This document shows positions 1 through 53,731 of a stretch of DNA of 64,000 bases, piece by piece. Source of the stretch: a virus; IMG/VR virus record IMGVR_UViG_3300026512_000002, positions 1 to 64,000 of that record. One strand, written 5' to 3'. How positions within the stretch are numbered: the stretch's first letter is position 1; each line of letters opens with the position of its first letter. Below the pieces are notes generated by a model, which was given only the letters and a program-made list of their open reading frames with translations, had not been told where the DNA came from and did no database searches. The translations under genes were made by a program, and so were the position numbers.

Positions 1-862
1 ATTAAGTATACAATATAAAAAACCTGATGATTATTGGAAAAGGATAAAATACGATAATGGATTAAAGACATATTTTGAAAGCTCTAAGAAGTATTGGAAG
101 AAGTGGGAGTATGATGAAAATGGGTTAGAAACTTATTATGAAGACTCTAATGGTTATTGGGAAAGGATAAAATATGATGAAAATGGACTGGAAACATATC
201 ATGAAGACTCTAATGGTTATTGGGAAAAGACGGAGTATGAAAATGGGTTGAAAACATATTTTGAAAAATCTAATGGTTTTTGGGAAAAGTGGGAGTATGA
301 AAATGGGTTAGAAACTTATTATGAAGATTCTAATGGTTATTGGGAAAAGTGGGAGTATGAAAATGGGTTAGAAACATATTTTGAAGACTCTACTGGTTAT
401 TGGAAGAAGTTGAGGTATGATGAAAATGGATTGGAAACTTATTTTGAGGACTCTACTGGTTATTGGAAGAAGTGGGAGTATGAAAATGGGTTGAAAACAT
501 ATTTTGAAAAATCTAATGGTTTTTGGGAAAAGTGGGAGTATGAAAATGGGTTGAAAACATATTTTGAAAACTCTAATGGTTTTTGGAAGAAGTGGGAGTA
601 TGAAAATGGGTTAGAAACTTATTATGAAAGCTCTAATGGTTTTTGGAAGAAGTGGAGGTATAATGAGAATGGATTGAAAACTTATCACGAAGACTCTGAT
701 GGTTATTGGAAGAAGTGGAGGTATAATGAGAACGGGTTAATGACATATTATGAAAATTCTGATAATGAAAAAAGAAAGTGGGAGTATGATGAAAATGGTG
801 AATTGATATATTTTACCAATTTCACTAAAAGAGATATTAATATAGATATAGAGTACAAATAA
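1..862 (+). CDS. 20-residue-repeat protein, 5' end outside window
   Basis: The frame is open from base 2 with no start, so this is the 3' part of a gene beginning before the window. It consists of tandem units of about 20 to 21 residues built on Y-E-N-G-L-K-T-Y-[YF]-E-x-S-[ND]-G-[YF]-W, rich in Tyr, Trp, Glu and Lys, ending in a non-repeat cap (D-S-D-N-E-K ... Y-F-T-N-F). Its first residues, L-S-I-Q-Y, match the point in the next gene where a ~55-residue N-terminal domain gives way to repeats, so probably only a similar short domain is missing. The next gene is a tandem paralogue 13 bases away. Such YD/MORN-like repeats suggest a beta-rich scaffold or surface protein. No enzymatic motif is visible and the function is unknown. 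Confidence 0.8.
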   Translation, partial: LSIQYKKPDDYWKRIKYDNGLKTYFESSKKYWKKWEYDENGLETYYEDSNGYWERIKYDENGLETYHEDSNGYWEKTEYENGLKTYFEKSNGFWEKWEYENGLETYYEDSNGYWEKWEYENGLETYFEDSTGYWKKLRYDENGLETYFEDSTGYWKKWEYENGLKTYFEKSNGFWEKWEYENGLKTYFENSNGFWKKWEYENGLETYYESSNGFWKKWRYNENGLKTYHEDSDGYWKKWRYNENGLMTYYENSDNEKRKWEYDENGELIYFTNFTKRDINIDIEYK

Positions 863-875
863 TAAAGGAGAAATT

Positions 876-1946
876 ATGAATAAAACAGAGATATTAGTAA
901 ATGCATGTAGAAGTGGTTTAAACGACTATTTTCAAAGTGGATTAGATAAAGTAGATCTAGAAAAAGTGAAAAAAATAACAGTGTATGATAGCAATGATTT
1001 TAGTAATCTAAAATGGTTAGTTGAAAAAATGAAACTGACATTAAGCATACAATATGAAGACTTTAATGGTTCTTGGGAACTGTTGGAATATGAAAATGGG
1101 TTGAAAACTTATTATGGTAAATCTGATGGTTCTTGGGAACTGTTGGAATATGAAAATGGGTTGAAAACTTATTATGGTAAATCTGACGGATATTGGGAAA
1201 AGTGGGGATATGAAAATGGGGTGGAAACTTATTATGAAAACTCTGATGGGTTTTGGAAGAAGATAGCATATGAAAATGGGTTGAAAACCCATCATGAGAA
1301 ATCCAATGGTTCTTGGCAAAAGTGGGGATATGAAAATGGGTTGAAAACTTATTATGAAAATTCTAATGGTTATTGGGAAAAGTGGGGATATGAAAATGGG
1401 TTGAAAACTTATTATGAAAATTCTAATGGTTATTGGGAAAAGTGGGGATATGAAAATGGGTTGAAAACTTATTATGAAAGCTCTAATGGTCATTGGCAAA
1501 AGTGGGGATATGAAAATGGGTTGAAAACTTATTATAAAAATTCTGATGGATATTGGGAAAAGTGGGGATATGAAAATGGGTTGAAAACTTATTATGAAAG
1601 CTCTGATGGTCATTGGGAAAAGTGGGGATATGAAAATGGGTTGAAAACTTATTATGGTAAATCTGACGGATATTGGGAAAAGTGGGGATATGAAAATGGG
1701 TTGAAAACTTATTATGAAAGCTCTGATGGATATTGGAAGAAGTGGGGATATGAAAATGGGTTGAAAACTCACCATGAGAAGTCCAATGGTTCTTGGCAAA
1801 AGTGGGGATATGAAAATGGGTTGAAAACTTATTACGAAGATTCTGATAATGAAAAAGGGAAGTGGGAATATGATAAAAAAGGCAACTTTATATATTTCAC
1901 CAATTTCATTAAAAGAGATATTGCGATAAATATAAAATATAAATAA
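876..1946 (+). CDS. 20-residue-repeat protein (paralogue of preceding gene)
   Basis: A 356-residue protein starting at ATG 876 after a good AAGGAG ribosome site. Residues 1-55 form a non-repeat domain. Residues ~56-335 are 14 units of exactly 20 residues (60 bases), consensus Y-Y-E-x-S-[DN]-G-Y-W-E-K-W-G-Y-E-N-G-L-K-T. The last unit is degenerate and passes into the same C-terminal cap as the preceding gene. Many units differ by only one to three bases at DNA level, so the array looks recently expanded and prone to copy-number change. A strong terminator follows directly. The repeat style resembles YD/MORN-like beta repeats; binding or scaffolding is an inference and no function is known. Confidence 0.85.
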   Translation: MNKTEILVNACRSGLNDYFQSGLDKVDLEKVKKITVYDSNDFSNLKWLVEKMKLTLSIQYEDFNGSWELLEYENGLKTYYGKSDGSWELLEYENGLKTYYGKSDGYWEKWGYENGVETYYENSDGFWKKIAYENGLKTHHEKSNGSWQKWGYENGLKTYYENSNGYWEKWGYENGLKTYYENSNGYWEKWGYENGLKTYYESSNGHWQKWGYENGLKTYYKNSDGYWEKWGYENGLKTYYESSDGHWEKWGYENGLKTYYGKSDGYWEKWGYENGLKTYYESSDGYWKKWGYENGLKTHHEKSNGSWQKWGYENGLKTYYEDSDNEKGKWEYDKKGNFIYFTNFIKRDIAINIKYK

Positions 1947-1958
1947 TATTTATATTAA

Positions 1959-3227: not shown

Positions 3228-3239
3228 TATTATATCCTA

Positions 3240-3870
3240 ATTAAGTTTATATAATTGTTAAAAAGGAAATTTAATATACGTTTCAAATAGCTTTTAATTA
3301 TATAAAATATATATCTAGTACCGTTTAACGATTCGTTTCGGACTATCACGCCATTTTATGATGGCTAATAGCCTACACTACTCTTATAAACTAGATCAAA
3401 CTCATTGTAAATCATATGTAAATTGTTAACTGTCGTTAACTTCTTACATATAATTTATACATATTGCTAGTTTAAAAGTTTTTTTGTGATTATGGAATGT
3501 AGACGTAACAATATCCCCCTATTCACAATTTTTAATAAAAAAAAAGTAAATAAGGAGATATGAGAAATACCAATTAAGAGTACCACAGGTTCTGCCTTGG
3601 AGTACCGGATAGTTTATGATCGTCAACTAACACATATTCAACATATCCTTCTATTATATAGAACAGGACGGGTATACACCAATTCAATTATTTTAAAAGA
3701 TAATCATCATGGTTCTGTTACTCAACTATATATGAACAGTTAACCTAGTAAAACTGTTTATTATCATATACCATGTCTTTTATGGTGAAGACATGTTAAT
3801 TAAAAACCTTTCCAAAGAAACTAGGTTCAAATTATTATCCAATATAAAAATATGGATAATGATCATTACT
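3240..3870 (-). ncRNA. Structured non-coding leader or RNA candidate
   Basis: About 630 bases without a plausible gene. Read on the minus strand from the promoter at ~3.9 kb it holds several stems: CATGTCT with AGACATG (loop of ten), AACAGTT with AACTGTT, GGCT-att-AGCC, GCCAT with ATGGC, and a CCAAGG/CCTgTGG hairpin flanked by GTACTC copies. There is a T tract near 3538-3546 on that strand but no strong GC stem in front of it. It may be a long 5' leader of the leftward gene or an independent RNA. No known family was recognised. Confidence 0.4.
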
Positions 3871-3873
3871 ATA

Positions 3874-3903
3874 AACATATCATATGTTTAAAATATGTGT
3901 CAA
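3874..3903 (-). promoter_or_regulatory. Leftward sigma70-like promoter
   Basis: On the minus strand TTGACA (3903-3898) is followed 18 bases later by TATGTT (3879-3874). It points toward the structured region and the gene ending at 2010, and is divergent from the nrdJ promoter about 70 bases away. Confidence 0.5.
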
Positions 3904-3971
3904 GTTTTTTTTTATAATTCAAGATAATTAATATTTACATATTAATATTATAGCTATTAATATGTTTTTAC

Positions 3972-4004
3972 TTGACATAATATTTATACTAATATAGTAT
4001 AAAT
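3972..4004 (+). promoter_or_regulatory. nrdJ promoter with overlapping palindromic operator
   Basis: TTGACA at 3972-3977 lies 15 bases before TATAGT (3993-3998). Overlapping the -10 is a perfect inverted repeat: ATTTATACTA (3982-3991), three-base centre, TAGTATAAAT (3995-4004). A dimeric regulator bound there would block transcription. The downstream gene itself begins with a helix-turn-helix-like segment, so self-regulation is likely. Confidence 0.7.
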
Positions 4005-4034
4005 ATTGTTTTTATATGAATATAGGAGTTAATT

Positions 4035-13725: not shown

Positions 13726-13774
13726 AATCGTAATATTGATGATCATAAATATATATTATAATAATAAGTTATTT

Positions 13775-14112
13775 AATAATGAATCGTGCATTGGCAAGTG
13801 TTTCCGGCGGTTCATAGCATAGAATGCTACTTATAGGAAACAACACACATTTGTGTGTTCCATTGTAAAGTTGTAGCTCTGGTAGGAAGGAGCAGTGAGC
13901 GGACATTGTGTGTCGAAACATGTCGCGGCTCTTGGTAGAAATACCAGCGGTAATCAATCCGTCAGAACACGTAAACATGGCTGACTACCATGATTGCTGG
14001 AGTTGCTATCCTAAAAGCAACTCTTGAGTAAATATATACAACCCTATCTGCGTTTGCGATAGGGTTGTATATCATTAAGAAAAGAGGTTGATCCCCTCTT
14101 TTCTTTTTTTTT
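13775..14112 (+). ncRNA. Compact structured RNA (~340 nt) with its own terminator
   Basis: The segment is more GC-rich than its surroundings and is almost entirely stem-loops: GTTTCC...GGAAAC enclosing TAGCAT/ATGCTA; AACACAC-attt-GTGTGTT; GCTC/GAGC; GGTA-gaaa-TACC; CCAGC..AATCA with TGATTgCTGG enclosing GTCAG/CTGAC; GAGTTGC/GCAACTC; a 15-bp stem at 14034-14072; and a final AAGAAAAGAGG/CCTCTTTTCTT hairpin with a T tract (14077-14112). The terminator sets the plus strand. No tRNA, tmRNA or RNase P signature was recognised. It ends ~100 bases before a KH-domain gene. Confidence 0.7.
14077..14112 (+). terminator. Terminator of the 13.8-kb RNA
   Basis: An 11-bp stem with loop TTGATCC followed by about eight T residues. 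Confidence 0.85.
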
Positions 14113-14175
14113 GATTATGGACGACATATGTTGAAATCATTTTCAATTATATATTATAGTAATAGTTAATGTGTT

Positions 14176-14201
14176 TATCATACAATATGGTATGATATAA
14201 T
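14176..14201. promoter_or_regulatory. Palindromic operator overlapping a -10 box
   Basis: TATCATAC (14176-14183), six bases, GTATGATA (14190-14197), overlapping TATAAT at 14196-14201, 19 bases before the KH-domain gene. The arrangement mirrors the palindrome over the nrdJ promoter, with a different sequence. Confidence 0.6.
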
Positions 14202-14219
14202 ATTTATATTGGAGGAAAT

Positions 14220-22084: not shown

Positions 22085-22385
22085 TACCATATCACATTAT
22101 GTCTAGGTGACATAACATGACTTAGGTTTTTTAGAATAAGAGATTGCTCTCTCGCGGATGATCGATGTTTAGCATCCGTCATGGTTCCTACACCATATTC
22201 TTACATGTTCGACAATTTAAAGGATCATTATGTCAGATGATCCTACCTTTATTGGTTTGCCTTAAGTTGGTTAGACTCAACGTGACTCTAGCTACAATGC
22301 TTATTTCACCCTTTCGGGTAGATATCACGATTAACCCATTACCAATGGGTTTATATTATAGGATAAATAATATACCCTATCAATG
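22085..22385. ncRNA. Structured intergenic region, RNA candidate
   Basis: About 300 bases with clear stems: CTAAAAAA..GGTTTTTTAG enclosing TTATGTC-tagg-TGACATAA; GGATG/CATCC; GGATCAT/ATGATCC; ACCC-tttc-GGGT; and AACCCATT-acc-AATGGGTT. It lies between the ankyrin pseudogene and the patatin gene. No terminator fixes the strand; it could be a patatin leader or a separate RNA. Confidence 0.45.
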
Positions 22386-22473
22386 ATATAATATATGTTT
22401 GAATGTATTATATATACGATTTTTTTATTTACTATATTAAACAATTTATTAATGAAACTATGAGGTGTATGAA

Positions 22474-28527: not shown

Positions 28528-28699
28528 ATTGTCATACTAAATGTCTCCCACAATATATGTAGAGGTTATCAGTTTGTAAAAATTTATTATAGTTTGTTAA
28601 TGAATATGATACATGATTATAGAAATAATATGTAATTAATTAATATATAAAATTATACTATCATTAGTCTATAATAGCATAATAGCTATATTTAAACAT

Positions 28700-29375
28700 A
28701 TATTAAGGTGTTGTAGTAGGACATATATACGAGGTGATCGTTTTATATGATCCGTAAATGTTTGAGCATGATAGTCAACGATCATGTTAATTTACAACTA
28801 CAAACATCTATCTAAAGCCAGCATAGATGTAAAACTTAATGCTGGGTAGACGTAATAGTTCCATTGGGGAGTGATTTACGCTAAGTTCGGATAGAAGGTT
28901 GGATTATGAGTTGTGTGTTACGCAATGAATATGAAAACTAGGAATATGAACTTAAGGCACCTCATGAGTATAACTTCTCATAATTGGTGTTTGAATATAC
29001 TGGATACTAGAGAAAAGTGTCCAGTATGTGGTGAAACCACCACTTGTTTAGCCGTAATGGTTACTCAAGAAGGTGGTCTAACCACTTCACTTAAAGAGGA
29101 GTGCCCTAGTTGTTTTAAAAAAAGAACTGGGTCTTCTTTAAGCGAAGTTATAACACTAGACTATTGGGATATAGTCTAGTATCACCAATATGACCAACAG
29201 TCTATAATGGTCATAGAACGCTTAATTCCGGCAACTAATAGGGATTCGCAGTAATAGGCGTTAGTGGTAACACCACAAAGGAGCTATAAGAAATAGCTGA
29301 TGATGAGTCTACTTGTCTGTAGTGGATAATTCAAAGGGAAGCAGTTGATCAACTATTCCCATTTCTTTTTTTTTA
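28700..29375 (+). ncRNA. Large ornate structured RNA (~670 nt)
   Basis: A dense chain of helices: TGTTGTAGT (28711) pairing with ACTACAA (~28800) around inner hairpins; ATACTGGA/TCCAGTAT; GTGGT-gaa-ACCAC; GTGGT-cta-ACCAC; a long helix CTTAAAGAGGA..CCTAGTT with AACTGGG..TCTTCTTTAAG that needs G-U pairs; ACTAGACTA/TAGTCTAGT; TGACCA/TGGTCA; AATTCC/GGGATT; and a final GGGAA..AGTTGATCAACT..TTCCC hairpin with T9 (29336-29374). Wobble pairs within an otherwise perfect helix favour an RNA over a protein. The size and style resemble the GOLLD/ROOL class of phage RNAs, but I cannot assign it. Function is unknown for that class. Confidence 0.8.
29336..29374 (+). terminator. Terminator of the 28.7-kb RNA
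   Basis: GGGAA-gc-AGTTGATCAACT-a-TTCCC followed by ATTTCTTTTTTTTT. Confidence 0.85.
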
Positions 29376-29591
29376 TTATATATAATAAAAATTGTATGGT
29401 AAAATATTTTATAATAGCATGGAATTAGATAAAAAACATACAAATCTCTAAAGTACAAATATTAGGATTGTGTAAAGAATATTGTTGAAAATCGTAATAG
29501 TTTAATGTTCGATTACATATTAGTTATATGATTGTAATTGTGCAATCAACGTGCGAGCGTTACTCGTTGAATTTTTTTTAAAGGAGGAATT

Positions 29592-29714
29592 ATGAAATAT
29601 TCTGATTTTAAAAAAAGACTGGCAGAAATGTCAGCCTTAGAGAAATCCATTTACTTAACTGCGTCACTGCAGTCAAGTAAATGGATTTCTATTCATCTAA
29701 AATATTTTAGATGA
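29592..29714 (+). CDS. 40-codon ORF overlaid by perfect hairpins (small RNA or leader peptide)
   Basis: ATG 29592 has an ideal AAGGAGG site and encodes a 40-residue basic peptide (M-K-Y-S-D-F-K-K-R-L). The coding part is almost wholly hairpins: CTGGCA-gaaa-TGTCAG; a ~21-bp stem (AGAAATCCATTTACTT at 29641-29656 with its exact complement at 29675-29690, plus inner ACTGC/GCAGT); and a perfect 30-base palindrome at 29689-29718. A GGGGG-taa-CCCCC terminator follows. A ribosome crossing the ORF would open the stems, so this could be a translation-sensing leader. It could equally be a structured small RNA with a chance frame. Confidence 0.5.
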   Translation: MKYSDFKKRLAEMSALEKSIYLTASLQSSKWISIHLKYFR

Positions 29715-29719
29715 ATAGA

Positions 29720-29744
29720 GGGGGGTAACCCCCATTTTTTTTTT
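29720..29744 (+). terminator. Terminator of the hairpin-rich short transcript
   Basis: GGGGG-taa-CCCCC followed by A and T10. Confidence 0.8.
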
Positions 29745-29814
29745 CGCATTCACTATATAATAATTGTGTTTTCATAGAAAGTTATTAACCAATTAATTAA
29801 AAAAAAATCTTTTA

Positions 29815-48768: not shown

Positions 48769-48790
48769 CCATTCATTTATGGGGTTTACT

Positions 48791-49570
48791 ATGGATAACG
48801 AGATATTGCAGTTACAGAAAAATATTAATACTATAAATTTTACAACAACTTTAGTCGAAGACGGTATTGATGGGTACAATACCCAAGAAGCATTAGAAGC
48901 ATATTATACATATTTTAAAAAATTAGATATAGCTGCATTAAGTCGAGTTGTTAAAGATAATCGTAACAGAATAAAATATATAACTCAACGAGGACCATAC
49001 AAATATTCATATAGAATGTGTTCAATTGCTAGTACCTTAATGTTACTCAACTTATATTCTGATGTGGATATGAGTATACCTATATTAGATAACTTAATAG
49101 ACAATGATAATGAATTGATAAAATGGGCTGCAAAATATGGTTTAGAGCATTTTATTAAATCACATAAATTAGAACAGGTTTCAACAGTAATAGCCAAAGT
49201 GTTGACAAAATTAACTCCTAGTGAATATAGTTTCTCACTTAAATATTTATCACGTTCAGAGATTTCAAAATACTTGGAAAATGGTCACCCACTGATAACA
49301 TCTACCAGATTTCCAGGTCGTAAAACAAATAATATGAAATCAGGACACTATATTGTAATAACAGCTGAATTGTTATCTGGGGTATACACTATACAAGATC
49401 CATGGGGTATGTGGGAAAATTATTATAAACATACTGCTGATGTTAATATTAAAGGTAAAGATGTGACTATTTCTGGTGACATATTATTTGGTAAATGGGG
49501 TTCTAAAACGGAATATTCTGATAATGGTGGTTGTTTGAATAAATTTAGAACGATTGGAATTGATTTATAA
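48791..49570 (+). CDS. Putative endolysin: peptidoglycan-binding plus C39-like cysteine peptidase
   Basis: A 259-residue protein; ATG 48791 has GGGG six bases upstream and is preferred over ATG 48779. Residues ~3-40 fit a peptidoglycan-binding type 1 motif (L-Q-L-Q-K-N-I-N ... D-G-I-D-G-Y-N-T-Q-E-A-L-E-A-Y). Residues ~65-240 resemble a C39/papain-like peptidase: catalytic Cys in Y-R-M-C-S-I-A-S, His in S-G-H-Y-I-V-I-T, and Asp in I-Q-D-P-W-G. It would cut peptide cross-links in the cell wall. No signal peptide is seen, so release would need a holin. An HTH gene and spanins follow, giving a lysis-region context. Confidence 0.7.
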   Translation: MDNEILQLQKNINTINFTTTLVEDGIDGYNTQEALEAYYTYFKKLDIAALSRVVKDNRNRIKYITQRGPYKYSYRMCSIASTLMLLNLYSDVDMSIPILDNLIDNDNELIKWAAKYGLEHFIKSHKLEQVSTVIAKVLTKLTPSEYSFSLKYLSRSEISKYLENGHPLITSTRFPGRKTNNMKSGHYIVITAELLSGVYTIQDPWGMWENYYKHTADVNIKGKDVTISGDILFGKWGSKTEYSDNGGCLNKFRTIGIDL

Positions 49571-50195: not shown

Positions 50196-50606
50196 CTATT
50201 GCGTTTTATAATACTTGGTTGTTTTTGAATTATTACGTTCATTATAGTATTTATTGTAATTTTCAATACTTTTAGAAATAGTTTTGAATTTAGCTAGTAC
50301 ACTTATAATATCAAAACCTATATCAGTAAATCTATCATAATCACACAATATGTATATTTTTTTCAGATCATTGCATTTAACATGGTATTTTTTAGCTATA
50401 CCACATTTCATACTACCTACAATAGTTTTAGTGAGTTCTGTTATTATTTTTTTTTCATCATCAGTTAATTTGGGCAATCTAGTTAAATTAGGTATATCTT
50501 CTTTAAGATATATGTTTTTATAAACAGTTTTTTCAACAATTTTTGGTTTGCAACATGCTGAAGACATTAACAATATACCTGTAATAGTTACGAATATTTT
50601 AAACAT
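50196..50606 (-). CDS. o-spanin (Rz1-like outer-membrane lipoprotein)
   Basis: A 136-residue protein with a signal peptide and lipobox near residue 18 (L-L-M-S-S-A-C-C), then a V-E-K-T-V-Y-K stretch typical of Rz1-type spanins. It would be lipidated and anchored to the inner leaflet of the outer membrane, joining the i-spanin to fuse the two membranes in the last step of lysis. It is longer than most Rz1 proteins, with a ~100-residue globular part. ATG 50606 overlaps the i-spanin stop (TAATG), so the two are translationally coupled. Confidence 0.75.
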   Translation of the reverse strand: MFKIFVTITGILLMSSACCKPKIVEKTVYKNIYLKEDIPNLTRLPKLTDDEKKIITELTKTIVGSMKCGIAKKYHVKCNDLKKIYILCDYDRFTDIGFDIISVLAKFKTISKSIENYNKYYNERNNSKTTKYYKTQ

Positions 50607-50959
50607 TAACAATCTCCTTTTTCACAATCTTCTATTCGTTTACTCATAGCTTCTGAAAAACGATATCTAGCTTCAACAACGCTATCGTCACCAGTATCAA
50701 TATTGTCAGATATTGTTCTATTCACAGCAGCAACTTTAGTGTTCTGATGTATTAGAAGTAGTGTTGTTTTAATATTTTCGTTATTAACACTCATTAAGCG
50801 TTTATTTGAATCAACTAATTGTATTATACGGTTTTCTAATTTAGCTATTTCCTTATTTTTTTTCTTATATTTTAAATATAAACGCACTAATCCTAACAGT
50901 GTTATTAATGCAACAATATATTTTCCCCAAGTGTATATTTTTCTTATCATATTAAACAT
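50606..50959 (-). CDS. i-spanin (Rz-like inner-membrane protein)
   Basis: A 117-residue protein with one N-terminal membrane helix (residues ~12-30, Y-I-V-A-L-I-T-L-L-G-L-V) followed by a periplasmic coiled coil (K-K-N-K-E-I-A-K-L-E-N-R-I-I-Q-L), the classic Rz layout. ATG 50959 follows AGGAGA. Its end overlaps the start of the lipoprotein gene in the same leftward operon. The spanin pair indicates a host with an outer membrane. Confidence 0.75.
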   Translation of the reverse strand: MFNMIRKIYTWGKYIVALITLLGLVRLYLKYKKKNKEIAKLENRIIQLVDSNKRLMSVNNENIKTTLLLIHQNTKVAAVNRTISDNIDTGDDSVVEARYRFSEAMSKRIEDCEKGDC

Positions 50960-50971
50960 GTTGTCTCCTAT

Positions 50972-51109
50972 TTATCCATTTAAAATAGCTTTATCTGTTT
51001 TTTTGTTTTTCTTATCCTCTTCAGAACATTCTTTAAGATAATCTTCTAATATTAAATTGTTATCGTGTAAAACTTTAATATCTTGGTTATTCTTTTTTTG
51101 ATTACTCAT
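50972..51109 (-). CDS. 45-residue small protein upstream of the spanins
   Basis: ATG 51109 has AGGAG six bases upstream and encodes a hydrophilic, Lys/Asn/Asp/Glu-rich 45-residue peptide (M-S-N-Q-K-K-N-N-Q-D-I-K), ending 12 bases before the i-spanin start. It is the first gene of the leftward lysis operon. No membrane helix is present, so it is not a holin. Function unknown. Confidence 0.6.
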   Translation of the reverse strand: MSNQKKNNQDIKVLHDNNLILEDYLKECSEEDKKNKKTDKAILNG

Positions 51110-51897
51110 AATATACTCCTTTATGAAATTTATAATATTGTCATTGTTATTGTTAAGTATATAGAATTATTTTAAATATATATTAATTAAATGTTGGATA
51201 TTAGTAATGTTCATAGATTTCTCTATGAAGCATTATCTAGGCGATGTATGCTGCAGAGGGTGAAACCTCTTACGCTATCAATGTCGTTGAACATGATGTG
51301 GATAAGGAATTTATCATAACACAAAGTATCTGACCGTCAAGGAAATGACGTTAACACCCGCTAGGATAGCGTAAAGCCTATGGCTGTAAACGGTAACTGC
51401 CGCAGCAAGTCAGACCTAGTTGGTTATTGGCGTAACATATTCATCGAATATATTTGAATATGTTTATAGTTAGACACACATGAAGTGTGTATTATTGATA
51501 TGAAGACATCCCCATGTTTCCACAAATGGTGAGGTGTGTATACTTGAGATAATATGTATGGAATGGAATATGTTGAGTTATGTTTTGCTTGATATGTTCA
51601 TGTGTTAAACTATGAATATGTTCGTATATAGTATGAATATTGTTATTAGAAGGACAACTATAAACCCGTTCACGGTTGTAACGTGTAATCGTTCTACTTA
51701 TGTTTTGGTAGATACGAAGGTGTGAGAAAAGTAGGATATAAACTACTTCACCAACTCCAGATAATAATGGGGGGACATGCGGTCTTAAAACGTATCGGTT
51801 ATTTCAAATAACCGGGTTGGTAACCTAAAACCTGGCTAGCCGAAGCCAATGTATAAATGAAACTATCATATATTGTGTTATGATAGTGGATTATGGT

Positions 51898-51945
51898 AGG
51901 ATTGGGCACCCTTGAGTATTTTCGGATACTCTTAATTGTCTATGG
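51898..51945 (+). repeat. Copy 1 of 48-base RNA module
   Basis: It begins AGGATTGGGCACCC and contains GAGTAT-ttcgg-ATACTC-like hairpin sequence. It differs from copy 2 (52130-52177) at two positions only. Its end (CTATGGT) can pair with a downstream ACCAT. Confidence 0.85.
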
Positions 51946-52129
51946 TCATAAAAACAGGTCGAACATGCGACATGACCATGATGCTCTAACAAAGCATCAA
52001 GGCGGTTTTCATAACGCCATGTTTTATCCTCAGAAAATCGAGGGGACGGTGGTCCTTAAACATTTGACCAAGTCATTGGTCAAAGTATAAGTGAAGTTGT
52101 TGCTGGCGAGTAATGATTGATCAAATGGC

Positions 52130-52177
52130 AGGATTGGACATCCTTGAGTATTTTCGGATACTCTTAATTGTCTATGG
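52130..52177 (+). repeat. Copy 2 of 48-base RNA module
   Basis: It begins AGGATTGGACATCC and otherwise matches copy 1, including the GAGTAT/ATACTC hairpin. Its CTATGGT end can pair with ACCAT at ~52209, repeating the architecture of copy 1. Confidence 0.85.
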
Positions 52178-52272
52178 TATGGGGTGCTAGTCAGGAGTAT
52201 TTGACTAACCATGGTGTTTCGCAAAACATCAAGACAATATGTCGAGCCCCCTTTTTTTTGTATTTACTACTA

Positions 52273-53487
52273 TTAATCTACAAAATCATTAATATTGACA
52301 TCAGTAACATTAACACTTAAATCATGAAAAGACTTCATCGATTTCAACATAATAACATTAGCTGGTTTAACAAAAATTAACCCAATATTCACAATACCTA
52401 ATTTATAATAAAGGTCGCCGGAACATACGTTACAATAACTCTCATTTCTACAATATAATGGTGATCGCATTTTTACAGTCTTATTTAAATATTTGTGTAT
52501 AATATCAGGGTCTAATCTAACTAATTTATTATTCTCCATAATATATCTGTATGTGTATTTATTTTGTTTTATATCAATTTCTGATATCATAACATCCATA
52601 TATGCTTTACTACCACAATCACTTTTTTTTTCACCTAAAACAGTTGATTGAAACGCTCCAGCATATAATTTTGCTAAATAACCACCAATAGCTGTATCCT
52701 TAGCTCTACCAAAACTACCAGCAACCATTAGATTAGCATGCTCGTGTATTTCATCTTTAGGTATCCCTTGTGATAAACTTTTCTTAGATATGAAAAATTT
52801 ATTTTTATCTTCTGGATCTATTATAATACCTCTCATTATATTAGTTACTTTATAATTGTTTTTAAAACTACCTCTGGCTCCTGATTCATAAATATCCATT
52901 GTCGGATTATCTTTAAATTTTTTTTTAGCCATATTTATTAGTTCTGTTTCAATCATATCGACTGTTTCGACAGGTCTGGTTTTTATCTCCTCAGAATATT
53001 TATCAAACAATTCTTTTTTTCTTTTTTCTATTTCTGGGTCATTTTTAGTCATATCGCTGGTCATTGGTGACGCTAATAAAATTACAATATTATAAGCTAA
53101 CCAATCTCTAGCATTGATATATTTCATATTGTCATCAAAACTTATTACATCATTAAGAAATGCTGTTGCCATATTATTATCAATTTTATATATAGCATCT
53201 TCATCAAGTATATTGTTAACATATCCATTAACTTTATAAAAACCTATGTCTCCAAATACCTCACTTATAAACATATTATATATGTACGAACCAACTGTAG
53301 TGGTTACTACACCCTTATCATTCTTATCAAACCTACTAAGTGGTATTGTCATCACTTGATCGGTATCAAATTTAGGAGGAACACCGTCTACTTCATTGAA
53401 CAAACTACTTAAAATTTCAAGCGTTATATCACTACCTTTTAAATTTAATAAATAATCAATACCCTCTTTATCAACTGTTTTATACAT
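52273..53487 (-). CDS. RNA polymerase beta-prime-like subunit (bridge-helix/trigger-loop part)
   Basis: A 404-residue protein homologous to the catalytic C-terminal part of bacterial beta-prime. Residues ~205 on read Y-E-S-G-A-R-G-S ... M-R-G-I-I-I-D (bridge helix). Then come F-G-R-A-K-D-T-A-I-G-G-Y-L (trigger-loop region), S-D-C-G-S, and M-R-S-P-L-Y-C ... C-N-V-C-S-G-D-L ... V-N-I-G with K-S-F-H-D at the place of beta-prime T-F-H. The N-A-D-F-D-G-D active-site loop is absent, so other subunits must be encoded elsewhere, as in jumbo phages with split multisubunit polymerases. ATG 53487 has GAGG six bases upstream (preferred over TTG 53499) and overlaps the previous stop. Position beside virion genes is compatible with a virion polymerase. 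Confidence 0.75.
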   Translation of the reverse strand: MYKTVDKEGIDYLLNLKGSDITLEILSSLFNEVDGVPPKFDTDQVMTIPLSRFDKNDKGVVTTTVGSYIYNMFISEVFGDIGFYKVNGYVNNILDEDAIYKIDNNMATAFLNDVISFDDNMKYINARDWLAYNIVILLASPMTSDMTKNDPEIEKRKKELFDKYSEEIKTRPVETVDMIETELINMAKKKFKDNPTMDIYESGARGSFKNNYKVTNIMRGIIIDPEDKNKFFISKKSLSQGIPKDEIHEHANLMVAGSFGRAKDTAIGGYLAKLYAGAFQSTVLGEKKSDCGSKAYMDVMISEIDIKQNKYTYRYIMENNKLVRLDPDIIHKYLNKTVKMRSPLYCRNESYCNVCSGDLYYKLGIVNIGLIFVKPANVIMLKSMKSFHDLSVNVTDVNINDFVD

Positions 53488-53731
53488 GAAGTACCTCAAG
53501 ATTGTTGTTGATAGATATTACACTATTTGATATATCATTATTTTTAGCAATATCGCTAAAAAATTTGTTAATCATATCTTTATCAAACACTTTATTTTTA
53601 AGAGTTTTTATTACAAACTCTTCTTTATCTATTAACGTATAAATATATGTGTTTACACCATCACATGTTACATTAATATAAGACAATTTATTTTGATTGA
53701 TTAAATAATTATTAGAACGGATCCATGCCAT
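53480..53731 (-). CDS. Small hypothetical protein
   Basis: An 83-residue protein taken from ATG 53731, which has GAGG six bases upstream; the open frame up to 53764 overlaps the preceding gene. It overlaps the polymerase-like gene by eight bases, so the two are coupled. Alpha/beta composition; no family was recognised. Confidence 0.6.
   Translation of the reverse strand: MAWIRSNNYLINQNKLSYINVTCDGVNTYIYTLIDKEEFVIKTLKNKVFDKDMINKFFSDIAKNNDISNSVISINNNLEVLHV

Follow-up and report, generated by a model that had tools for sequence, protein, structure and literature searches.

The sequence analysed here (hereafter the window) covers the first 64 kb of the virus record IMGVR_UViG_3300026512_000002, which is 227,696 bases long. 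In the whole genome, no ORF-free gap is longer than the one at 50960–52272 (counting ORFs of at least 80 amino acids), which is located between a gene for the C-terminal part of an RNA polymerase β′ subunit and small genes of the minus strand (Table 1). The β′ protein is 35–38% identical to its counterparts in Listeria phage LPJP1, Staphylococcus phage SA1 and Bacillus phages BpSp and AR9, and the source is therefore an AR9/PBS1-like jumbo phage that encodes multisubunit RNA polymerases of its own. In the AR9 annotation this counterpart is a virion RNA polymerase subunit. The gene is intact, reaching the normal C-terminus, and its stop codon is separated by 13 nt from the T tract of the convergent unit described below. 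On the other side of the gap are an endolysin-like gene and two overlapping small ORFs; these ORFs have no family match above cut-off in Pfam or PHROG, and appear to be a spanin-like pair, as read from their layout. No tRNA gene was found in any piece of the 227.7-kb record.

Table 1. Features of the gap and its surroundings, in window coordinates.
Feature	Position	Strand	Basis or properties
Endolysin-like gene (Peptidase_C39_2)	48779–49570	+	Pfam E 8e-8; phrog_10051 E 9e-7
Spanin-like layout, two overlapping small ORFs	50196–50959	-	Lipobox-like N-terminus; N-terminal membrane segment
Predicted early (virion RNA polymerase) promoter core, AAATATATATTAA	51174–51186	+	12/13 to AR9 consensus; 6-nt spacer; start G51193
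Putative giant structured non-coding RNA, 1,066 nt	51193–52258	+	z -7.3; GC 38% versus 29% for the window; no + strand gene within 4 kb
5′ domain, predicted closing helix GUUGG/CCAAC	51193–51757	+	Domain z -5.3
3′ domain	51768–52251	+	Closed by GGGGG-GACAUG-GUCU (51769–51785) with AGAC-UAUGUC-CCCCC (52232–52251)
Module A, copy 1 of duplicated unit	51847–52001	+	70% to module B over 157 aligned positions, E 8e-18
9-bp hairpin of module A	51862–51887	+	Counterpart of 52096–52117
Near-invariant 54-nt core, copy A	51893–51946	+	94% to copy B, spacing 232
Module B, copy 2 of duplicated unit	52081–52233	+	70% to module A over 157 aligned positions, E 8e-18
9-bp hairpin of module B	52096–52117	+	Four G.U pairs, would be C.A on the minus strand
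Near-invariant 54-nt core, copy B	52125–52178	+	94% to copy A
T8 tract, presumed 3′ end	52252–52259	+	Sequence
RNA polymerase β′, C-terminal part	52273–53499	-	phrog_2962 E 2e-66

A first-pass annotation of this DNA had described a kilobase of non-coding sequence, packed with about 20 stem-loops, as a giant structured RNA of modular build next to the lysis genes. The non-coding kilobase was borne out, and the modular RNA in its lysis-gene setting is supported. ORFs inside 51193–52258 reach at most 65 amino acids, and none has a Shine-Dalgarno site or gives a Pfam or PHROG match. The + strand folds at -328.6 kcal/mol, with a z-score of -7.3 to -7.8 against dinucleotide shuffles (-5.0 when 20 shuffles were used), against -2.1 and +0.5 for two coding controls of equal length, and each half is significant alone (z -5.3 and -6.4). 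The strong folding thus stands, but the number of stem-loops is ordinary, with 21 hairpins versus 18.5 in shuffles; the unusual trait is stability, not hairpin number in itself. The minus strand folds as well (z -7.6), so that folding energy alone cannot pick the strand, and since other gaps of the same phage are also structured (13726–14219, 29180–29814 and 3228–4034), structure alone is not peculiar to this region.

Within the predicted fold, the closing helix of the 5′ domain is not significant alone (230 of 2,000 shuffles), while that of the 3′ domain has a pair probability of 0.86 and a duplex that beats 1,990 of 2,000 shuffles. The rightward T tract, previously taken to close the block, is present, but no local terminator hairpin was found there by scan; instead, the CCCCC preceding T8 is predicted to pair with GGGGG (51769–51773), 480 nt upstream, in an interrupted 15-bp helix equalled by 10 of 2,000 shuffles.

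Early promoters of AR9 have the consensus AAATATATATTAT-(6N)-G, with the start at G; they are used by the virion RNA polymerase and are active without protein synthesis (PMC5312081). The motif AAATATATATTAN7G has its sole exact match in the window at 51174–51193, abutting the 5′ side of the structured block. This is the best match of the window to the AR9 early promoter, agreeing at 12 of 13 positions (mismatch at position 13) and with G at +1. Genome-wide, 11 sites have at most one mismatch and G+1, against ∼3 expected. The likely 5′ end of the RNA is G51193, 19 nt past the start of the promoter match, which shifts the start from the 51190 first proposed. Strong early promoters mostly sit a short way ahead of a gene that has a ribosome-binding site (median distance 68 nt in this phage, 40 in AR9 and 59 in SA1), and no such + strand gene follows here (Table 1). 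From its promoter match, the RNA appears to be switched on by the injected virion RNA polymerase.

A blastn comparison of the RNA against itself identified an internal duplication. The duplication had been noted before, as a 48-base module, but its size needs revision: a 54-nt core is embedded in two diverged copies of ∼157 nt, modules A and B. Folded separately, each module gives a 9-bp hairpin after a common GUAUAARUGAA. The hairpin arms differ at 12 of 18 positions between the modules, yet all nine pairs are kept, through four double changes and four one-sided changes to G.U; under random replacement at the same sites, the chance of keeping 9/9 pairs is P ∼5e-4. Four of the module hairpin pairs would be C.A mismatches on the minus strand and are valid only on the + strand, and additional G.U pairs in the core stem and the last hairpin likewise favour the + strand. 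RNAalifold, applied to a MAFFT alignment of the modules made independently of the hairpin reading, reports five double-changed pairs. As no homologue was found (see below), this covariation rests on the two internal copies; coming from two sequences, it supports the fold locally rather than the whole model, and in sequence terms it is internal evidence for an RNA.

Membership of the GOLLD class, as suggested earlier, is not supported: there is neither a GOLLD covariance-model match nor a tRNA-array setting. The Infernal scan of the window against Rfam gave nothing at gathering thresholds, and in the region, to E 10, only snoR09 (E 6.5), a chance match. GOLLD (RF02032) was absent from the window (at gathering and to E 10) and from the whole record, in searches without a strong GOLLD positive control; a GOLLD match of 16.8 bits in another record (G020) is weak, and corresponds to a short promoter-terminator unit, not GOLLD. 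ROOL (RF03087) matched neither the window nor the whole genome. The positive control for this model is a ROOL RNA of 311 bits in a related 306-kb AR9-like jumbo phage (G027, IMGVR_UViG_3300032030_000005), between tRNA-Glu and tRNA-Asn (L200:6222–6803), and giant RNAs therefore occur in the AR9-like lineage. OLE (RF01071) gave no match in the full Rfam scan to E 10.

Homologues were sought more broadly. Blastn of the RNA against phages and plasmids returned promoter-sized matches only, exact or gapped motif scans of IMG/VR gave nothing or chance matches, one pattern scan of GTDB genomes was empty, and no homologue was found among ∼50 AR9-like records. A covariance model of the two modules, searched against 49 records, recovered only its own two copies; the next matches (L204, 19.6 bits; L202, 16 bits; L243, 25.1 bits) either fall in coding sequence or are weak. 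A gap at the same gene in LPJP1 was rejected as a homologue, being a group II intron; in that phage an ORF-less group II intron lies near the 3′ end of the RNA polymerase β′ gene (L002:7188–7783), and the annotated protein is cut short there. Among the records searched, the RNA so far appears to be an orphan, the single member of its kind, and since it matches no catalogued family, it seems to be a giant phage RNA of a new kind.

The promoter-to-T-tract layout recurs at two other places in the window, with unrelated sequences. At 13747–14112 (+), a perfect 13/13 early promoter core is followed by a gene-less structured unit of ∼338–347 nt, starting at 13766 (z -7.4 to -7.9, GC 0.40), which ends in a hairpin and T9 and has no Rfam match. 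At 22400–22072 (-), a 12/13 early promoter with G+1 precedes a gene-less structured unit of ∼302–310 nt, starting at 22381 (z -4.7 to -6.0) and ending in T8; the resemblance between this unit and module A (GGUAGGAU...AAUUGUC) lacks statistical significance. These two units had been omitted from the first-pass annotation, as had the early promoter and the adjacent virion RNA polymerase β′ gene. By the same test, AR9 contains nothing comparable to these gene-less early structured units. A further promoter-to-terminator early unit is present twice, in the window (28671–29373) and elsewhere in the genome (115463–114690, minus strand). Between the copies, its 5′ 300 nt are 99.7% identical and its 3′ structured 157 nt 88% identical, but the ORFs enclosed differ, one of them having two CxxC motifs, so that it resembles an RNA frame whose coding cargo can be exchanged. 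Genome positions 68272 and 69094 have the same early promoter and leader, a moderately structured leader of ∼500 nt (z -3.0) precedes the ORF at 71064 (L047:6563–7063, genome 70563–71063), and window 1–1948 and genome 68480–68930 have common coding repeats of the YENG.KTYYESSNGFWEKWE type.

Structured units were also identified in related phages. In SA1 (L262:9537–10640) and at loci L289–L294, an unannotated 1.1-kb early-promoter unit with repeated modules (a CATTATATGAATACGTATAATG hairpin in several copies) lies between endolysin/two small genes and a retron-type reverse transcriptase (RT) with a 200-aa N-terminal extension. This unit is conserved in 10 Staphylococcus jumbo phages, and the consensus fold from seven of them has -125 kcal/mol, versus ∼-19 for column-shuffled alignments, with 54 double-changed pairs. 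Also in SA1, a tRNA-Ser and then a structured gap of ∼570 nt follow the virion RNA polymerase β′ gene (L004:6374–7020); the gap is partly conserved in other Staphylococcus jumbo phages and has no Rfam match besides the tRNA. In another related record, a structured RNA of ∼367 nt directly follows an RNA polymerase gene (L027:9279–9645); it starts like an early-promoter unit and ends in a hairpin and T tract. Early structured units, occurring in the source phage and in Staphylococcus jumbo phages, appear to be a recurrent theme of AR9-like phages, with unrelated sequences.

The RNA was compared with the closest known systems. GOLLD is likewise phage-borne, longer than 800 nt, composed of 5′ and 3′ domains, and of unknown function; of these traits, the RNA here has the length (1,066 nt) and a supported 3′ domain closure, with the 5′ closure not significant. 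It differs in having no model match or tRNA neighbourhood, and in its early promoter and internal duplicated module. tRNA islands are a usual, though not obligatory, trait near GOLLD. ROOL is also phage-borne, large and ornate, and occurs in the same jumbo-phage lineage, but its model is unmatched here, the kin ROOL is embedded in a tRNA array and has no early promoter, and ROOL RNAs measure ∼580–660 nt. OLE, a large structured RNA of Gram-positive origin, differs in that its model is unmatched and that it is encoded on bacterial chromosomes and has protein partners. The Staphylococcus unit (SA1, MarsHill, S6 and others) shares the early promoter, the size of ∼1 kb, the repeated modules, the position beside an endolysin and the lineage; in contrast, it is followed by an RT gene, its sequence is not similar to that of the RNA here, and no RT was detected in the source phage. 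Those AR9 early transcripts that have long 5′ leaders have the promoter type in common, but these leaders are 26–491 nt and precede genes (PMC5312081), whereas the unit at 51193–52258 precedes none.

Non-coding, folded, containing a duplication that co-varies on the + strand, and running from a promoter match to a T tract, the stretch 51193–52258 is very probably a genuine structured early RNA, read on the + strand. An RNA gene is supported by the folding z-score with its coding controls, the promoter motif at the 5′ edge and its genome-wide enrichment, the gene-less downstream region, the covariation between paralogous modules and the recurrence of the promoter-to-T-tract layout in this genome; against it count the homologues not found, the promoter mismatch at position 13 and the lack of a classical terminator. 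The fuller reading, which on balance I favour, is that of a dedicated gene for one untranslated, folded early + strand RNA, probably acting in trans with its doubled module. The virion RNA polymerase would enter with the DNA and transcribe the + strand from the 51174 early promoter, and since this polymerase is injected, synthesis of the RNA would precede that of all phage proteins. The RNA would fold into 5′ and 3′ domains, the latter closed by the long-range helix and carrying the duplicated module, with its core near-invariant and the surrounding helices co-varied. The stable RNA would then act in trans, alone or, via the doubled module, on a host or virion protein; in the first minutes only host and injected proteins are present, and a trans-acting RNA would thus work alone or with these. 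Because the core is near-identical, flanked by diverged neighbours and present twice, it looks like a two-copy recognition element, which favours a scaffold or decoy for a host or virion factor. I propose this function tentatively, and the binding partner is a guess.

The main rival to such a scaffold or decoy is an RNA-only assembly, namely a protein-free homo-oligomer (a nanocage or similar) that would resemble GOLLD and ROOL in function, with another sequence and fold. GOLLD forms 14-mers and ROOL 8-mers (PMC12286853). The size, the two-domain layout, the phage origin and the lack of a partner protein would all agree with this, and a true ROOL in a related AR9-like phage suggests that giant RNAs are useful to the lineage; however, the RNA has no Rfam match, lies outside a tRNA array, and has its own early promoter, unlike the kin ROOL, which lies between tRNA genes without one. 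I regard an RNA-only assembly as rather unlikely. A long untranslated or antisense region that regulates in cis either the lysis genes or the convergent gene for the RNA polymerase subunit is less probable again. The proximity of the T tract to the convergent stop codon would suit it, and late minus-strand read-through would be antisense to the RNA, but the unit has its own promoter match, its compact fold far exceeds what a terminator needs, and a duplicated co-varying module would be unexpected in an antisense RNA.

The 1.1-kb modular early unit between endolysin and retron-type RT in Staphylococcus jumbo phages of the lineage raises the question of a retron-like template or partner RNA. This is very unlikely here, as no RVT_1 (PF00078) match exists in the whole 227.7-kb record, while the same search detected RTs in SA1, LPJP1 and phiR1-37 (records W01, W03 and W05), and as there is no sequence similarity to the Staphylococcus unit, the RNA finding only promoter-sized matches in the phages that carry it. 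Small peptides are highly improbable. Both 54-nt cores open with ATG, where the repeat starts, and could read M(V/A)GL(G/D)(T/I)LEYFRILLIVYG, but there is no Shine-Dalgarno site, the downstream frames differ between the copies, and no family is matched. Moreover, all three differences between the cores fall at second positions of the possible ORF and are non-synonymous, and one of them turns G.U into A-U inside a helix, which fits RNA rather than protein constraint. The least probable reading is that a self-splicing intron, or another mobile RNA, left this stretch as a remnant; introns do occur at or near the same gene in AR9-like relatives (group II in LPJP1, group I-like in L034 and L035), but group I and group II models gave no match at E 10, and the RNA lies outside the neighbouring gene, which is uninterrupted.

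Few giant RNAs are known from phages, and for none of them is a function known. The RNA at 51193–52258 lies outside a tRNA array and is seemingly driven by a virion RNA polymerase. If fired by that polymerase, it would act within minutes of the start of infection, with host and injected proteins as the only ones present. It may, with a likelihood that I place a little short of even, represent a new class, a giant immediate-early RNA machine (assembly or host-factor decoy) of AR9-like jumbo phages, and one of several unrelated early structured RNAs in the same genome. Since SA1, S6 and MarsHill carry an analogous early kilobase unit beside an endolysin, the function of giant early RNAs can be asked in isolated phages.
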